A model generated the notes under the pieces. It saw only the letters and a list, made by a program, of their open reading frames with translations, was not told where the DNA came from and made no database searches. Position numbers and translations under genes: made by a program. Below, one piece after another: positions 6,761 through 29,007 of a DNA stretch of 64,000 nt (position 1 is the stretch's first letter; each line of letters begins with the position of its first letter). Location of the stretch: assembly GCA_031213475.1 (NCBI GenBank), contig JARUPZ010000013.1:2503231-2567230 (forward strand), in the 5' to 3' direction. This DNA is from Nereocystis luetkeana. Its lineage: Eukaryota; Sar; Phaeophyceae; Laminariales; Laminariaceae.

Positions 6761-7251
6761 TGTGAAGATATGGCCGAGGTAAGGGTAAGGGTAAGGGACG
6801 CAGGTGTATCTGGCAGCTGGGAAGTAGTGCTTCGCTTCTTCTGATATATATCTTCTTTATTGATGACTAGAGCTGAGGAGGTGCTCTGCTAGAGAAGTGA
6901 GAGGTAGGGGGGTGGGACTCGACGCTCAGATATACTCGTCCCACCCCACGCGACAAGCTCTCCTAAATTCCTCTTATCTAATGTACTCCTAAATAACTTT
7001 CCTATGGCTACCGAACGTTCTTCTGCTAATATAAGAACTTCTCACATTACGATCCTATCTGCGTTAAGGAACATTACTCTTGTCTAACGGCCTATCCGCC
7101 TTAGAGAACATTCCTAAAAGACGGTTACTCTCAACTACCGGAATATCCACCGGGTTAGTCCATTCTTTGGATTGTTCTCGTATTCCTCAGTCTACGAATC
7201 TGCCGACTATATTATCTGTATCTATAGCCCATGAGCACTCCACTCATATCA
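6761..7251 (-). repeat. 3' LTR of the gypsy element
   Basis: 491 bp that match 11505-11994 almost base for base, including 'gtaagggtaagggtaaggg' near the plus-strand left end. The LTR is TG...CA bounded. Just outside it at 7252-7275, the minus strand reads 'cagggtgggctaatg', a plausible polypurine tract. Confidence 0.9.
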
Positions 7252-8684
7252 CATTAGCCCACCCTGAATAGTCGTATATGCAGACCACAAGATGGTCGAA
7301 GGATGAGGACAAAGTTTATCCCAAAAGACCAGGAAAAGGTGGTCGAAAATGCGGGTATTCGAAACAAAAGAAATGAGGCTTTAGATTCCCCCACACCTCG
7401 TCATAAGACCCAAACACTGCGAAGGGGTGTTTACTGAGAACAGCCACTAAAAGGTATAGACCAAAAGGGAGGAAGATATAACATAAAGCGGAAGCGAAAG
7501 CAGAAAAAGGCGAAGCGAAAACCGTAGAAAGAAGAAAGAAAACAAGAGACAGAACATAAAGCCGAAGCGAAGGCGGAAGAAGAAAACTAAGGCCGAAGTG
7601 CAGGCGAAAGAAGGGCGCAGAGACGTATTACTGGGGCCATTGTCTGGGGCACAAAAATGTGCGAACGGGGGTTGGTCGCCGAACCGGGTTGGCAAACTAG
7701 GAAACTCGCGAAAGGAGCTGGCATCGCAATAAAAACAAACACATATATATATCTGGTAGGAGTAATGCCTTGTCGTGTGGCGGAGGTCCTAACGTGGTAG
7801 GTATCACTCAAGAGAAACGGGGCACTGCTAAAGTGCAAAGAGGGCTGCGTACACTAGGGGTTATTAAAACCGGGAGACGCAGCGAACAACGCTGCGTCTG
7901 GGAGACCTCTTCGTCGTAGGAACTATACCAACAAACTTAGTAAGGTATTTTTCTCAACAAGAAAAAACTTAAGAAGATCCGCAAGGAGATTGGCGTAATG
8001 CGTGCAGTTCAAGGTGGTAGATAGCGCAGGGCTAAAACACTAGCGTGTGCAACTCGGCCAACAGGGGCAACATCAAAGATGGTGTCGTTTGCCACAGAGC
8101 AGAGGGGCGCACGGAATACCGAACAAAAGATGAAGAAACCTAAGAAAAATAAAACAAAGCACGATCGGGACCAGGAAACTACCTGAAAGCAGAACACATG
8201 TCAAGGAAACTCGATCTTGGCAGGACCGCCATGGTTGATAACTCTGCGGCCTTCCGGGGCGGCAATGCTATCCGGACCCTACTTGGCAAACATAGAAGAA
8301 ACACGGGTGAGCTGGAAGCTCGATTTATTCCTTGCTCGATGACCGTCTGAAACAGGGGTAGGTGGAAACCTACGAAGGTCAGGGCACAGCCCAGGCTACG
8401 ACGCGATTTTACCTCGGCGTAGTATTGCCAAGAATTGGCGGTAGGCTAGTGAAATACACACACATATGAACATTACGGTATCGCGACATTTCGGCGGCCT
8501 GAACGTAAGGAGGCAACACGGAGGTGTAGGCGATAGGAAGAAAAATGAAGGTAGACGGAAACAAATGCACCCAAGAAGGTGGCTGCTGGTGACTATTGAA
8601 GACTAACCCTGAAGAACTACTCTAATATATTGTTGACTAACCAGAAACAAGTACCCAGAACTAAAAAAAAATGCTAAACCAAGG
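7252..8684 (-). other. 3' non-coding part of the gypsy element
   Basis: About 1.4 kb between the last recognisable coding sequence and the 3' LTR. It includes a degenerate purine-rich repeat around 7480-7610 ('gcggaagcgaaagcag', 'ggcgaagcgaaa'). No open frame resembles a known protein. The last 250 bp have a diverged relative at 35820-36080. Confidence 0.6.
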
Positions 8685-9703: not shown

Positions 9704-10624
9704 TTAGACCCAAACCCAGCCGCCGACGGTGAAGGGGGGGAATGCTCGGAGGGCGGCCATGATTGGTGCGTTGCGGCGCTGGAGACGCGAGACGGTGAGT
9801 CGGTGTAGTTCGCGGACGAGAGAGTACGCGCGTCGTTGTCGGTCGGTGGCGAGGTTGATGTAGACCAGATGATCGCGGTCTAAGCTTTGGTGGCCGCCGA
9901 TGTTGTCGGGTTCGAAGGCCGAGAGCGGGAGGCGAAGAAGGCGGCCCATGTGGATTTCGTTAGGCGCAAGCCCTGTAGCGGCGTTCACGGAGTTGTTGTA
10001 GGCCGACGACATGTGTGGCAGTAGCACATCCCAGTCGGTCTGCGTTTCGTTGCCGACCATAGAGTGCATTTGGGCCAACACATGGTTAACGCGCTCGACG
10101 CCGCCGTGGGTGCAGGGGTGGTAGGAGCTGGTGTTGACCTTGCGGATTCCAAGGCGCTCGTAGACGATATTGGCAAGCCTGGAGGTAAAGTGTAGTCCGT
10201 TGTCGGAGAGAAGCGTAACCGGGCACTCCCAGAGAGGGACGTATTCGTTCAGGAAGATGTCGGTGGTGCCGGCGGCCGTGAACTGCGCCGCTGAAACGGC
10301 AAACATATCGGCGCGCCGGCTGAAGCGGTCGGTGAAGAGAAGGATGTGGACGTTGCCGCGCGGCGTGAGCGGCAGGGGTCCGAAGTAGTCGACGCTGACG
10401 GTGATGCCAGGCCCGTTGGGCAAAGGAAGAGAAAGGATGAGCAAGCGAATGGTGTGCCGGGTGGTTTTCCGCGCCTGACATTGAAGGCAGCGGCGGATCC
10501 ACCAGTGGACGGAAGCGTCCTGGCGAATCCACCAAAAGAAACGTGCCAGCATGCGGACCGTTCGGGTGACTCCTAGGTGTAGAGAGGTGGTGGCGTGGCA
10601 GGTGTTCAGCACCCAGGGGCGCAT
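9704..10624 (-). pseudogene. Ty3/gypsy integrase core
   Basis: 306 residues from the first ATG after a stop. The zinc-binding HHCC module is at H10, H16, C46 and C49. The catalytic triad is D79 (VDYFG), D141 (LLSDNG) and E177 (GGVERVN), with exactly 35 residues between the last two, the DD35E spacing of retroviral-type integrases. The protein would insert element cDNA into chromosomes. The frame is continuous with the leader ORF upstream except for one TGA at 10625-10627, and it ends at a TAA after GGWVWV where related proteins normally continue. Both look like nonsense changes in a longer polyprotein. Catalytic residues are intact, so the core itself is well preserved. Confidence 0.9.
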
Positions 10625-11461
10625 TCACATTGGCACATAGATGCGTGGGGTAAGGGGGGTGGGTGGTGGTAGGCTGTTCCCGGGTGGGGGTGGGGGTGGT
10701 CGTTGGACCAGGAGGGTGGTTTCGTCGTCCGTACGGTGCAGCTTGCTTTTGGAGGTAAGGGTGAGGACGTCCGGAAGTTGTGGGCGCCCGGCCGAGGGGA
10801 TGAAATCCAGGAGGTCGTTCGGCGGGGGGGCAGGGGAGTCCAACGACAGGAAGCGTATGGTGGCGCAGCACAGGGGCTCTGTTCGTTGTTCTCGCGCCCA
10901 GTCTCTGAAGGTGTAGTGCTCGACGCGGGCGAGGAGGTGGGGGTCGTCATCGGGTTCGACGATGGGCTCCGGGAGGGGCAGCGACGGTGGTGTTGGTGCC
11001 GGCGGAGAAGGCGTTGTTGGAGGGGTCGGGGTTGGGTTTGCGGGCGCAAACGGGTCGGGTGGCGCGGGAGCTGTGGCTGAAGGCGCCGTAGGAGGAGGAG
11101 GTCTTGGCTGGACCCCGGCCGGGGGCGTGGGCGCACTGTGGGTGGGTGTAGATCGTCTGCGTACGACGGGTTGTGGTCGACGGCCGAAGCAATAGTCGGC
11201 TGTGGGTCGAGGGGTTCCCGCGGCAGCGGCAATGCGATGGCGGGTCCGAGAAGATATCAGGCCTGAGACGGCTGGTTCCGTGCCGCCAGTGGTGGACGGC
11301 GGAGAGATGACGGACGGCCTGGAAGCCGAGCCTGGAGGAGCTCGGCTGTTCACGGCGGCGTTCTCGGGGCCAACAAGCAGTCCGGCGGTGGAGTCAGGGG
11401 TCGCAATAGGCCCGACGTGTCGACGTGCCCGAGTGGTTAAGGGAATGGATTGGAAACCCAT
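10625..11461 (-). pseudogene. Pro-rich leader frame fused to the integrase N-terminal region
   Basis: 278 codons. The ATG lies inside the antisense of the tRNA-Ser sequence, so its first dozen residues are translated from tRNA complement. Next comes a long Pro/Thr/Ala-rich, low-complexity stretch (about residues 85-165), then a segment (about 175-278, including FRDWAREQR and TSKSKLHRTDDE) that resembles the linker just ahead of integrase in gypsy polyproteins. It ends at TGA immediately before the integrase ATG in the same frame. There is no Gag zinc knuckle, aspartic protease or YxDD motif. Protease, RT and RNase H appear to have been deleted. Whether the Pro-rich part is Gag-derived is unknown. 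Confidence 0.55.
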
Positions 11462-11502
11462 TGTGATTTCACGCGCAGGCTCGAGTCCTGCCGTCGACGC
11501 CA
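11419..11502 (+). tRNA. Full-length tRNA-Ser(GGA) sequence with CCA, at the element's primer-binding site
   Basis: A complete class II cloverleaf. Acceptor GTCGACG pairs perfectly with CGTCGAC over seven pairs. The D stem is CCC/GGG. The anticodon stem is ATGGA/CCCAT with one A-C mismatch next to the loop TTGGAAA, giving anticodon GGA (codon UCC). The long variable arm is GTGA/TCAC. The T stem GCAGG/CCTGC is perfect, with loop CTCGAGT (C where T54 is usual). The 3' end reads discriminator G then CCA at 11500-11502. Eukaryotic nuclear tRNA genes do not encode CCA, so this was copied from mature tRNA. It lies two bases inside the 5' LTR on the element's complementary strand, exactly where the primer-binding site belongs. 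I read it as a primer-binding site extended over the whole tRNA, not an ordinary tRNA gene. Box A and box B each carry about one deviation, so transcription is possible but unproven. Confidence 0.8.
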
Positions 11503-11504
11503 GA

Positions 11505-11994
11505 TGTGAAGATATGGCCGAGGTAAGGGTAAGGGTAAGGGACGCAGGTATATCTGGCAGCTGGGAAGCAGTGCTTCGCTTCTTCTGATATATATCTTCT
11601 TTATTGATGACTAGAGCTGAGGAGGTGCTCTAGTAGAGAAGTGAGAGGTAGGGGGGTGGGACTCGACGCTCAGATATACTCGTCCCACCCCACGCTACAA
11701 GCTCTCCTAAATTCCTCTTATCTAACGTACTCCTAAATAACTTCCTATGGCTACCGAACGGTCTTCTGCTAATATACGAACTTCTCACATTACGATCCTA
11801 TCTGCGTTAAGGAACATTACTCTTGTCTAACGGCCTATCCGCCTTAGAGAACATTCCTAAAAGACGGTTACTCTCAACTACCGGAATATCCACCGGGTTA
11901 ATCCATTCTTTGGATTATTCTCGTATTCCTCAGGCTACGAATCTGCCGACTATATTATCTGTATCTATAGCCCATGAGCACTCCACTCATATCA
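11505..11994 (-). repeat. 5' LTR of the gypsy element
   Basis: 490 bp, TG...CA bounded, about 97-98% identical by eye to 6761-7251. The minus-strand 3' edge is followed by a TC spacer and then TGG, the start of the tRNA-complementary primer-binding site. Confidence 0.9.
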
Positions 11995-13363: not shown

Positions 13364-15135
13364 AACCTAACGGCCTGGAGAGGATGATGACGGTGATCGT
13401 GACTGCATGTGCCGCTTTCGGCTTGACGGTCTCGGAGGCCTAGACGGAGACAATGTCTTTGCAAACGAATGATGGGGGGAACGTGCCGTTCACCGTCACC
13501 GCAGCCGGCGAAGTGTACAAACAAACGACCGAGGTTGTGTATTTGGACGGGGCTATCCGCGCAGATTGGACGAGCAGAAGTGTCGAGGTAACGCGTCGAC
13601 TCCAGAGAGCATGGGCCTGCTTCGGGCGGTTTTAGATTGAAATCTATGACCGCCCGGGTGGGCGCCTACGCCTGAAGGTGCGAATGCTGAGAGACGAGGT
13701 GATCGAAACGTTGCTCTACGGTTGCGTTACTTGGAGCCCGAGAAAGACTGATTAGGGTAGGCTACGGGAGGCCCACTACAAGATGCTCCTCCGATGCATC
13801 GGCTGGCGAAAACGAAAGCGCGAAGACCACATTCTATCCTATGCTACCGCGCTTCTCAGGACAAACTCTGAGATCGTTGAGATGACGGTCCGCAGACGTA
13901 GGCTATAGTTTGCGGGCGTTGTGACACGCATAGGAGAGGAGCGTCTGCCGAAGAGGGCGATGTTTGGGGAGATGTTTGGGGGTAACGCTTCTCCAGAGGA
14001 CAGGAGTGGGAGTGGATGAGGTACCTTGAGGAGGACCGCAAGGCGTTTGGCGTCAAGCTCGAAGGGTGGCGCGAGGCAGCACAGAAAGCCGGCAGGTGGT
14101 TCCGACGGGTCGAGGAAGGGGGGGGAGGTTTTCATGCGGAACTGGCGTGAGGATGAGAAGGAGGCATCATCAGAACGACACAGGAAGGCTGCAACCACGA
14201 CAACAACCGTTGACGCCAACGCACGTGCGCCGAATGGCAGGGAAGAGGGGGGGGGGCGAAAGGGGGACGAGCGAGAAGGAGGGGAGGAGGGGGGGGGGGG
14301 AGGGGGAGGCGTTCTGCCCAACAGAGTGAGGCCTGGGTGTGGCCATCATTCGTCATGATGCTTTCCCTTGTTTGGAACCAAAGTAACTAGCATGGTGCCA
14401 CCCGGGCAACTTTACGTGTCTGTAGGCACCAGTTCCTCCCGTTCGTATTATCTTTCCCCCCCGCCCTTCTTTTGTCCCTTCTTTTCATCTCTCCTTCTTT
14501 TTCGTTAGTACTTCTTCGTGTCTCTGTTTGTATTTCTTCCGTTTTGCTTTTTTAGTTTTTTTTTTCGCTGTCTGCTTTTTTCGTTTTCTGCTTCGCTTCG
14601 TCTTCCTCTTTGTTTTTCGTTCGCTAGTCTCTTTTTAGCTCCCCTGGTGTTCTTAGTGGCGGATTACGTATGTTTGTCTTTTTGGTATTATCTCTGTTCT
14701 ACACTCCTCGCGTAGCGTGTGAGCCTGCAATCTGCGAAAAATTGCGCATCTTCTTCTTGTGTGTTTCCCTTCTTGATTTCTTGCTTTCCATTGCTTCCTT
14801 GCCTGACTTGAACTTTGTTTTATTTTGCTTCCCTTTAGGACTATTAATAGTGATTTTTCGATTTTGGTTTCGATTTGTCGACGTCGAGTTGTTGTTGTCA
14901 TCCTGTCTATTTTTTCTGGCTAGGATGTGGTATTTTCGTTTTTTGTGGCAACCTGTACAGCGTTCCGCAAGTATCAGATACGTACGTGCCCGGACGTCAA
15001 TTTTTTATGTTTTGTTTGAGGTGTAGATGTGCATCAGTTATCATGTGTACTATTATTTGCTTATTTTATTTTTACCGAGGTGTTTTTTCCACTCCGGAGT
15101 TATTGGAGACTGTCCTGCGACCACGGACTGCAAAG
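13364..15135 (+). mobile_element. LINE copy A, 5'-truncated
   Basis: A 5'-truncated LINE that starts just downstream of the point equivalent to the polymerase YADD motif of copy B and then parallels 27222-28953 closely. The coding remnant runs from 13364 to about 14350 in broken frames and includes the 'LLYGCVTWSPRK' type block and the 'GWREAAQKAGRWFRR' block. A pyrimidine-rich 3' UTR follows, ending in the family motif 'ggagactgtcctgcgaccac'. The tail opens directly into a (TTG)n run at 15136. No intact frame remains. Confidence 0.8.
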
Positions 15136-25512: not shown

Positions 25513-27223
25513 GCAGAGGTGCCCTCACGATGGCAGAAGAAGGAAAATGCGAGGACGCAACTACGTGCTAACCCGAGCGACAAAAATCTGCGGAAAGCTT
25601 GGAAGGTTGCCACGAAACAGCTCAAACGTGCGAGGACGGACGGAGTGCAGGCGTTCTTCGAAGAAGACGTCCGTCAACTCGAAAGACGTATCCAAGAAGG
25701 CGATCAGTTTGGGTTCTACAAGCGCCTTAAGGGGAGGGATGTGCAAGGGAACAGGACTTTCATTTCGCAGTATATCAGGGACGAAGATGGTAGATTACTG
25801 CGAGACATCGGCCTCATCCGTGAACGATGGGTAAGGTGGTTCCATAAGCTGCTAAACACCAAGTCATCGACCCTTGGTTGTGGTTTGCGGTAGTTTGATA
25901 CAGGTCTACGGATATTGGGGGTTTCATGTATTGTGGGGTTTTGTATTATGTATCGAGGCATTATTTGGTACGCCTCGTGGTTGGAGCTGCTCCTCCGGGA
26001 GCAGTCGCTGATGTTAATGATACGGCCCAGGCTTTGATGATAACGATACTGCCTGCCTATACGTGAGTGGTGCAGCCGGTGACAATTTTGGTTCGGCTTA
26101 CCTCCTGTGTGTGGTTTATGCGGTGGGGTCTCTGACAGAACGGTATTATTGATACACCTGGTGTGTGTTGTGTTTGGTGTATTGTACAAGTATCTTGTTT
26201 TCTCTCCTCGATCTACGCCATAGGGGCACGCCGCGTGGTTAGATAAGCCAAAGTATACAGCAAGCGTATTCAAACAACCCTCGACCCGACGATCCTCGGC
26301 GAGCTCAAGGTCTGGCCCTCGTGCAGTCCGCTGGACGACGTCCCGTCTAGATACGAGGTGGAAACGGCGATCCGGGCGATGACGAACCGCAAGGCGGTTG
26401 GGCCTGATGGTCTCCCAGCTGAACTTCTGAAGGTCCTGGCCGACAAAGGAGACTCGGACACCTTGGGAAGCTTCTACGAGATCATCGTCGCTGTGTGGAG
26501 GGGAGGGGTCGTGCCGCAGCAATGGAGAGATGAAACGATTAAGGTGCTCACAAAAAGAAAGACAGGACGGAGTGTGGTATCTATGGTGGCATTTCCCTTG
26601 TCGTGCATGCCGGCAAAGTACTCCTCAAAGTCATCGCGCGCCGCCTAAGCGACTACAGCGAACGGGAAGACATCTTGCCAGAGGAGCAGTGTGGCGTTAG
26701 GCGCGAATGGTGGCCGGTCGACATGATGTTCGTGGTGCGACGCTTGCAGGAATTGGCAAGGAAGGACACTTCGCTGTTCATGTGCTTTGTCGACCTCACT
26801 AAAGCCTATGACTTCGTCGACCGAACCCTCCTGTGGGTTGTCTTGGCTCGCTTTGGCGTGCCACCTAGAATGCTCACCGTTATCCGCCGATTCCACGACG
26901 GCATGCGAGCATGCGTGCGGCTGGATGACGGCGAGTGCTCAGATATGTTCGACGTGAAGCAGGGCCTATGGCAAGGGTGCGTGCTCGCGCTAATGCTGTT
27001 CAACATGTTTTTCACAGCGGTGCTGCGTGTGGCGGAGAAACGCTTCGCCGCTGATAAAGCCATCACGGACAGCATAGTGCAACTCCAACGAAAGCAGGAG
27101 AAGACACAAAAGAAGAGAGCGAAGGCACGGGCCGGACAAGCCGACGGACAGGAGAAGGATAAAGAGACCCAGGCACTGTGGGCTGTGCTGTATGCTGACG
27201 ATGCGAGCATAGCATCGCGATAA
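25513..27223 (+). pseudogene. LINE reverse transcriptase, copy B
   Basis: Reverse transcriptase for target-primed insertion of LINE RNA. The upstream segment (25519-25874) reads RKAWKVATKQLKRAR and FYKRLKGRDVQG, typical of the region ahead of the fingers domain. After the solo LTR the frame resumes with RAMTNRKAVGPDGLPAELLK (26382 onward) and WRDETIKVL. Around 26590 a frameshift moves the reading into 26603-27223, which holds [22 protein letters not shown], the first catalytic aspartate in [13 protein letters not shown], and YADD, the second catalytic pair, near the end. The endonuclease domain is missing. Dead by insertion, frameshift and 5' truncation. Confidence 0.85.
25875..26276. mobile_element. 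Solo LTR with 5-bp target duplication ACCCT
   Basis: A 402-bp insertion that begins TG (TGGTTGTGG) and ends CA (TTCAAACA), flanked by ACCCT at 25870-25874 and again at 26277-26281. Taking out the insertion and one ACCCT leaves the surrounding LINE reading frame uninterrupted across the site, which confirms the boundaries. TG...CA ends with a 5-bp duplication are the mark of an LTR retrotransposon; the internal part was lost by LTR-LTR recombination. It is not related to the 6761/11505 LTRs as far as I can see. Confidence 0.85.
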
Positions 27224-29007
27224 CCTAACGGCCTGGAGAGGAGGATGACGGTGATCGTGACTGCATGTACCGCTTTTGGCCTGACGACTCGGAGGCGAAG
27301 ACGGGGATAATGTATCTGCAAACGAAAGATGGGGGGAACGTGCCGTTCACCGTCACCGCAGCCGGCCAAGTGTAAAACCAAGCGACCGAGTGTGTGTATT
27401 TGGGCGGGGCTATCAGCGCAGATTGAACGAGCAGAAGTGTCGAGGCAACCCGTCGACTTCAGAGGGCATGGGCCTGCTTCGGGTGGGATATGAAGGAAAT
27501 ATATGACCGCCCGGGTGTGCGCCTACGCCTGAAGGTGCGAATGCTGACAGACGAGGTGATCGAATCGTTGCTCTACGGTTGCGTTACTTGGAGCCCGAGC
27601 AAGACTGGTTAGGGTAGGCTACGGGAGGCCCACCACAAGATGCTCCTCCGATGCATCGGCTGGCGAAAACGAAAGCGCGAAGACCACATTCTATCCTATG
27701 CTAGCGCACTTCTAAGTACAAACTCTGAGATCGTTGAGACGACGATACGCAGACGTAGGCTATAGTTTGCGGGCTTTGTGACACGCATGGAAGAGGAGCT
27801 CCTGCCGAAGGGGGGTGGTTTTTGAGGAGATGTTTGGGGGTAAGGGTTTCTCCGGACCACAGGAGTGGGAGTGGATTAGATACCTTGAGGAGGACCGCCA
27901 GGAGTTTGGCCTCAAGGTCGAAGGGTGGCGCGAGGCTGCACAGAAAGCCGGCAGATGGTTCCGACGGGTCGAGGAAGGGGGAAGGTTTTCATGTGGAAAT
28001 GACATAAGGATGAGAAGGAGGTATTGGCAGAACGGCACAGGATGGCTGCAACCACTACCACAACCGTTGACGCCGACGCGAGTGCGTTGAATGGCAGGGA
28101 AGAGCGGGGGGGGCGAACGGGGAACGAGGTGGAATGGAGGGGGGTGGGGGGGGGGGGGAGGGGGAGGCGTTCTGCCAAACAGAGTGAGACCTGGGTATGG
28201 CCGTCATCGTCATGATGCGCTCCCTTCGTTGGGACCCAGGTAACTACCATGGTTTCACCCGGGCAACTTTGCGTGTCTGTATCCTCCAGTGCCTGCTTTT
28301 CGTATTATCTTTCCCCCCCGCCCCGTGTTTGTCCCTTTTCTGTCCCTTCTTTTGTCCCTTCTTTTGTCCTTTCTTTCCATATTTCCTTCTTTCTCGTGTG
28401 TACCTCTTTGTGTCGCTGTTTGTATCTTCCGTTTTGATTTTTTGCTTTTTGCTATCTGCTTTTCTCCGTCTCCCTTTTTGTTTTTTGTCTGCTAGTCACT
28501 TTTTTGCTTCCCTGGTATTCTTCGTGGCGGAGTGCGTATGCTTGTTTCTTTGTTTTTATCTCTGTTCTACACCCCTCGCGAAGCATGCGAGCCTGCAATC
28601 TGCGAAACAATTGCGGATTCTCTTGTGTGTTTCTATTCTTGCTTTCTTGCTTTCTATTGCTTCCTTGCCTGACTTGAACTGTTTATATTTTTCTTCCCTT
28701 TCGGATGTGTTATTTTTTCTATTTCGATCTCGATTTCGACGTCGAGTTGTTATTTTCATCCTGTCTAAATTGTCTGGGTAGTGTGTGGTCCTCTCGGTAT
28801 ATGTGGCGACTTGTACAGCGTACCGCATGTATCTGATACGTACGTGCGCGGACCTCCTTTTTATGTTTTGTCTGAGGTGTAGATGTGCTGCAGCTATCAT
28901 GTGTACTACTATTTTTTTACCGAGGTATTTCTTCCACTCCAGAGTGCGCATTCTTGAACGGTGGGCGAGATTTGTCGGCACCCTCCTGACCACGAAATCG
29001 TCTAAGC

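Follow-up and report, generated by a model that had tools for sequence, protein, structure and literature searches.

Primer-binding sites extending up to a whole tRNA-Ser, with changes that fit misread tRNA modifications, in LTR retrotransposons of Nereocystis luetkeana

The window, meaning the whole 64-kb stretch of DNA that was analysed, contains a Ty3/gypsy-like long terminal repeat (LTR) element on the minus strand at positions 11994-6761. Its features, including an extended primer-binding site (PBS), are given below in the order in which the element reads.

11505..11994, minus strand: 5' LTR, 490 bp, TG...CA, 97.6% identical to the 3' LTR
11503..11504, minus strand: spacer between LTR and PBS, two bases, TC on the element strand
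11485..11502, minus strand: ordinary 18-nt PBS, complement of the tRNA-Ser 3' end including CCA
11419..11484, minus strand: over-extension, complement of the remaining tRNA-Ser up to its 5' end
10625..11461, minus strand: open reading frame (ORF) of 278 codons, with its ATG and first codons within the antisense tRNA (MGFQSIPLTTRARR...)
9704..10624, minus strand: integrase ORF, zinc-binding domain above the cut-off, core at 28.2 bits (cut-off 32.6)
6761..7251, minus strand: 3' LTR, 491 bp, pairing with the 5' LTR

The element thus has the two similar LTRs with TG...CA ends and the tRNA PBS after the 5' LTR that are typical of Ty3/gypsy elements, the 97.6% identity of the LTR pair corresponding to 11 differences over 491 sites. 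TATAT occurs near both outer ends, with one base between the upstream copy and the TG of the LTR, so that the putative target-site duplication is imperfect. Integrase was the sole Ty3/gypsy enzyme domain in the parts scanned (four ORFs and one further stretch, exclusive of 7252-8684); no reverse transcriptase (RT) was found in these parts, and the window copy is therefore probably non-autonomous. Relatives of a sister integrase (P0010, P0092) carry RT, RNase H and integrase, and those relatives that are named by organism come from Ectocarpus. The 278-codon ORF matched no Pfam family. A telomere-like run, GGTAAGGGTAAGGGTAAGGG, is present in both LTRs (11521-11540 and 6776-6796) as well as in other LTRs of the group, and a direct repeat of 1.7 kb (85% identical) lies outside the element at 13364-15058 and 27222-28914.

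ARAGORN called one tRNA in the whole window, a tRNA-Ser at 11419-11502 on the plus strand with anticodon GGA and a length of 84 nt including CCA. This bears out the preliminary description, which had placed the complement of a complete 84-nt tRNA-Ser with CCA two bases from the 5' LTR (11502-11419 on the element strand), although the range given there, 11419..11504, has to be trimmed to 11419-11502, since 11503-11504 is the spacer and the LTR ends at 11505. The ordinary 18-nt part of the site ends at the base preceding tRNA position 58 (linear index 66). In the over-extension, the window copy carries A26 and G34, retains A58 and shows one additional change, T62C (linear index). Host genes with the same tRNA body have G26 together with A34 or C34, i.e. 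anticodon AGA or CGA, and no CCA. The proposed identity as tRNA-Ser(GGA) has to be corrected as well. A host tRNA-Ser(GGA) gene was considered as the source and rejected, as the searches found no intact one; a GGA/G26 place without an evident LTR (L189) is an eroded sequence that is not called as a tRNA. The apparent tRNA-Ser(GGA) of the window is very probably a tRNA-Ser(AGA) with inosine at position 34. Five tRNA-Ser(AGA) genes are found within approximately 13 kb of the genome (G000 C15:6712304-6725603).

Host tRNA genes lack an encoded CCA and have a close T-run terminator, neither of which applies to the window site. The first TTTT on the plus strand lies 574 bases beyond the window tRNA, compared with 0-8 bases at 10 host genes; among 29 element copies examined it lies at 4 bases in L080, is absent from the stretch of L120 and lies at 86-823 bases in the others. 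The preliminary description had also proposed a tRNA promoter in antisense to the element. The tRNA does lie opposite to the element strand, but with no terminator nearby an antisense Pol III promoter appears unlikely to yield a tRNA.

A pattern search of the genome located 1035 exact copies of the 18-nt PBS and 172 places matching a 35-nt extended PBS pattern with ≤2 mismatches, and backward-read control patterns (tRNA 5' half, 35-nt extended PBS and 18-nt PBS) gave 0 matches. A search with the window site, of the kind suggested in the preliminary description, brought up further full-length sites adjoining other LTRs. Judging from these full-length copies beside other LTRs genome-wide and from the empty controls, the antisense tRNA of the window is not a chance match. 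A pattern of the tRNA 5' half that allowed any base at positions 26 and 34 gave 45 matches, of which 11 have G26, 33 have A26 and 1 has T26. Of the 34 A26 or T26 places, 31 had a PBS in register, while L081, L082 and L087 had none within two mismatches; the downstream sequence of L082 nevertheless matches a known subfamily. Among the 11 G26 places, 10 correspond exactly to gene sequences, lack CCA and have a T-run 0-8 bases downstream; the eleventh (L076) is a diverged copy, likewise lacking CCA. A distal tRNA pattern gave 0 matches in viral contigs.

The distribution of site lengths was assessed in a sample of exact PBSs taken irrespective of the sequence behind them, namely the complete set of 37 on contig C1 together with the first 30 on C2. 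Fifty-six of the 67 sites stop before tRNA position 58, aligning over 19-23 positions (the 18 nt plus one open position plus chance matches), 10 extend to 44-84 nt, and one (L153, aligned over 33 positions) is ambiguous and looks like chance. By raw count, 14 of 28 loci with an 18-nt PBS (L149-L176) have A as the next base, which could represent a one-base over-copy opposite m1A58. In two LTR groups an A box-like sequence in the LTR end is combined with a B box-like sequence just after the 18-nt PBS (TATAGCTCAGTAGGT ... PBS ... GGGTTCGAACC in L150, L151 and L177; TAGCCCAACGGACTAAG ... PBS ... GAGTTCGAATCTC in L178, L200 and L207), a layout reminiscent of a Pol III promoter or tRNA split across the junction of LTR and PBS; when introns were allowed, ARAGORN called 0 tRNAs in 40 short PBS loci. 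Three PBS loci (L202, L203 and L204) are identical over 140 bases and lie within approximately 113 kb (C2:8616886-8730228), representing either a recent burst or a segmental duplication.

To define the extended set, 82 of the 100 places listed among the 172 were examined; of 104 copies, 2 were duplicates and 8 measured less than 35 nt, and setting these aside left 94 distinct copies. L002, L081, L082 and L087 were dropped for having no PBS within 2 mismatches, and host loci and repeated entries were excluded as well. The 94 copies form 84 junction groups, whose ends fall at tRNA index 38-50 (8 groups), 36-37 (12), 33-35 (11), 28-32 (14), 26-27 (10), 6-25 (6) and 1-5 (23). The complement of the tRNA continues past position 58, and instead of staying within the T loop, with an end at 55 or 54, the sites have ends that span index 50 to 1. 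Beyond position 58, the enzyme would thus tend either to reach the end of the tRNA or to halt on the way, be it within the anticodon arm or on G26.

The extended copies were compared with the host tRNA-Ser genes (AGA or CGA; G26) as reference. Outside positions 26, 34 and 58, 145 of 5597 cells are changed across the 94 copies, a background of 2.6%, which is somewhat lowered by the search rules, as ≤2 other mismatches were allowed and alignments end where matching ends; these rules do not lower a background of tens of per cent to 2.6%. The three positions stand far above this level. Position 26 differs from the host genes in 35 of 37 copies (A in 34, T in 1), G26 being kept in L120 and L126, and position 58 differs in 55 of 94 copies (T in 41, G in 10, C in 2, deleted in 2). 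At position 34, G is found in 28, C in 34, T in 1 and A in 0 of 63 copies, so that 29 of the 63 differ from the host genes. Counting each junction group once gave the same picture, with changes in 27 of 28 groups at position 26 and 51 of 84 at position 58, and G in 24, C in 29 and A in 0 of 53 at position 34. Position 9 remained an unaltered G in 32 of 32 copies, and position 32 is T. RT is expected to misread m1A mostly as T and m2,2G as A, and the changes at 26, 34 and 58 fit reverse-transcription misreading of m2,2G26, inosine-34 and m1A58. A gene of the Trm1 family, responsible for m2,2G26, is present in the genome (371.6 bits). In S. pombe, sequencing reads of tRNAs show misreading at G9, G26, C32, A34 and A58 but none at i6A37 (PMC4697793).

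In the antisense frame, the change at position 26 replaces ATC by ATT and leaves the amino acid as it is, and coding selection therefore does not explain it. An A34, by contrast, would place TAA at codon 4, so that the missing A34 may partly reflect selection, and the changes at position 34 could also have been shaped in this way; the increase in G34 carries more weight than the absence of A34. For the T34 seen in L017 and L081, a host tRNA-Ser(UGA) was considered as the source and rejected, because the UGA genes (L190, L191) have a very different PBS region; T34 probably arose from C by a later mutation to T. Besides carrying the CCA, the copies are altered at the three positions at which modification would be expected in a eukaryotic tRNA-Ser, and the view that the site arose by reverse transcription of a mature tRNA primer past position 58 finds strong support.

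The preliminary description had further proposed that RT once read through the whole primer, past the modified base of the T loop, and that the extended site was then inherited. As far as sequence comparison can tell, the mechanism is right and the word "once" is not. A single ancient read-through, with all extended copies as its descendants, partial sites as deletions and the states at 26, 34 and 58 as later mutations, would account for the near universality of A26 and for seven copies of one group that have a common junction, which indicate that inheritance occurs too. As a single origin for all copies it is nonetheless very improbable, because the 94 copies fall into 84 junction groups and 14 LTR-end groups; because the five largest LTR groups each show several states of position 58, and four of these five contain G34 as well as C34 (both Ser isoacceptor types); and because the remaining positions vary so little. 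It also conflicts with the linkage between position 34 and the acceptor base in partial copies, where G34 tends to occur together with the acceptor base typical of AGA genes and C34 together with the CGA type (9:4 and 3:15, p 0.0075). This linkage is absent from the full-length copies (12:3 and 10:6, p 0.43), and the window copy itself combines G34 with CGA-type acceptor bases; we read the full-length sites as putative mosaics of several rounds. Sites of all lengths occur within the LTR group of the window, with 18-nt sites in L034, L035, L036, L157 and L170, partial sites in L003, L004, L005 and L018, and full sites in the window and L002. Two pairs of copies from the same subfamily (L004/L157 and L011/L155) have common downstream sequence within the pair and differ in having or lacking a tail. 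As for the seven-copy subfamily, LTR swapping at the PBS was considered and rejected, the apparent LTR divergence of 27-34% reflecting flank read beyond a shorter LTR. As regards a possibly faster renewal of the tRNA part than of the DNA behind it, five copies carry 1-4 changes in 63 tRNA positions, compared with 0.7-9.3% in the first 290 downstream bases. No 18-nt version of the seven-copy subfamily was found; at two places with 3 mismatches the PBS part does not fit.

Even less credible is a host tRNA gene, pseudogene or tRNA-derived SINE that came to lie beside the element, or was inserted into it, by chance. ARAGORN does call an intact tRNA in the window, but the CCA and the constant register with the PBS across many unrelated LTR groups already contradict such an origin, as do the lack of a terminator and the A26 of the copies compared with the G26 of host genes. 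Two other explanations could apply to part of the copies. Cleaved 3' tRNA halves, used as primers and copied to their end, would leave ends in the anticodon loop, where 23 of the 84 junction groups do end (index 33-37). The 24 groups ending at 26-32 and the 23 ending at 1-5 are not obtainable from a tRNA half, and stops of HIV-1 at the bulky base 37 are already known (PMC13191261), so that this contribution is judged unlikely. Somewhat less unlikely, though still doubtful, is priming by hypomodified tRNA lacking m1A58, on which read-through would require no unusual enzyme. A58 is kept in 39 of 94 copies, and an unmodified primer was copied to its 5' end in vitro (PMC13191261), but the more frequent outcome at position 58 is a change, which an unmodified A would not give.

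Taken at the level of sequence, the results demonstrate that a mature tRNA-Ser, complete with CCA, has been copied beside LTRs many times and to differing lengths, and that the copies show changes of the kind expected from misread modified bases. As the copies bear typical misreadings of three marks on the mature tRNA, the enzyme would have read the tRNA itself, and done so many times. The antisense tRNA is, with high probability, an over-extended PBS, formed by an RT that repeatedly passes m1A58 into its primer and leaves a tail that survives plus-strand transfer. By analogy with retroviral replication, we infer that the copying takes place in plus-strand strong-stop synthesis and that the tail is kept at the second strand transfer. 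RT would then copy the 3' end of the tRNA-Ser primer while this is still joined to the minus-strand DNA, usually halting before m1A58 and leaving an 18-nt PBS. Often it would instead pass m1A58, frequently misreading it, and halt further on, be it within the anticodon arm, before m2,2G26 or on reaching the 5' end of the tRNA. The plus strand would take this tail along as it moves to the opposite end of the minus strand, and new copies would thus be born with sites of approximately 44 to 84 nt.

Traces that may stem from such tails were found in several copies. Directly behind the tRNA copy, both L016 and L065 have GCCA and then the start of the inverted LTR end (approximately 11 bases in L065), as would be expected if a single-stranded tail folds into the acceptor stem and self-primes. 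More generally, if only scores exceeding those of all shuffled controls shown are counted, 17 of 104 copies have a second, directly oriented LTR end at a distance of ≤130 bases, and 5 have an inverted one (L016, L094, L095, L104 and L109); L065 falls below this threshold. The tRNA also supplies the leader ATG, as had been suggested, the 278-codon ORF beginning at 11461 within the antisense tRNA. Among 32 near-full-length copies considered, 7 were unscored, and in the 25 scored the frame from this ATG runs for 278 codons in the window, 215 in L014 and 12-114 in 20 others, and reaches the end of the sequence examined (514-516) in L007, L015 and L020. Given such varying lengths, the tRNA ATG opens a long frame in some lineages only.

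The extended sites occupy the same place as the ordinary 18-nt tRNA-primed PBS of LTR retrotransposons and match the same tRNA 3' end with CCA; the ordinary form is also the majority in this genome, whereas the window site spans the whole tRNA. The 18-nt length of the PBS is ascribed to a stop at m1A58. As reviewed in PMC13191261 (section 10), m1A58 stops retroviral enzymes, a primer over-extension sequence, the closest known counterpart of the kelp sites, serves ends at 55 or 54 in lentiviruses and spumaviruses, and HIV-1 products reaching position 37 or the tRNA 5' end are described as inactive. The kelp sites resemble the lentiviral and spumaviral ones in that the match to the tRNA continues behind the PBS and beyond position 58, which leaves over-copied plus strands able to transfer; they differ in extending as far as the anticodon arm, G26 or the tRNA 5' end, in containing misread bases and in occurring in many element copies. 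For mouse endogenous retroviruses, it has been asked whether PBS changes reflect modified tRNA bases, and there the variants do not match the known modification positions (PMC7472051), in contrast to the three matching positions found here. The misreading of G26, A34 and A58 is shared with tRNA sequencing (PMC4697793 and PMC13210174), where it occurs in the test tube, unlike the present misreadings, which are fixed in genomic DNA. No mention of a full-tRNA PBS was found in the titles and abstract openings of the literature searched, a scope outside which most subscription papers lie.

Once formed, a full-length site would presumably allow all strong-stop products to anneal and be rewritten by either Ser isoacceptor, and one may speculate that this capacity to anneal them all gives the full-length state an advantage. 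A broader reading, whose prospects we put a little short of even, is that the full-length site is no accident but a working, self-renewing state in which all strong-stop products (ending at 58, 37, 26 or the 5' end) are transferable, which is rewritten from the Ser isoacceptor that served as primer in the preceding cycle, provides a frame start in some lineages and leaves in the genome an inherited record of tRNA modification. If so, the wobble base of the primer (inosine or C) would set codon 4 as CAA or GAA, and an unedited A34 would give the stop TAA. This is a natural genome in which 10 of 67 sampled sites extend beyond m1A58, with both outcomes kept in numbers. It displays what may be the evolutionary fate of over-extended plus strands, in the form of retained tails, LTR-end duplications, apparent fold-backs and new reading-frame starts, and its PBS sequences would become a fossil record of tRNA modification and of the identity of the priming tRNA.
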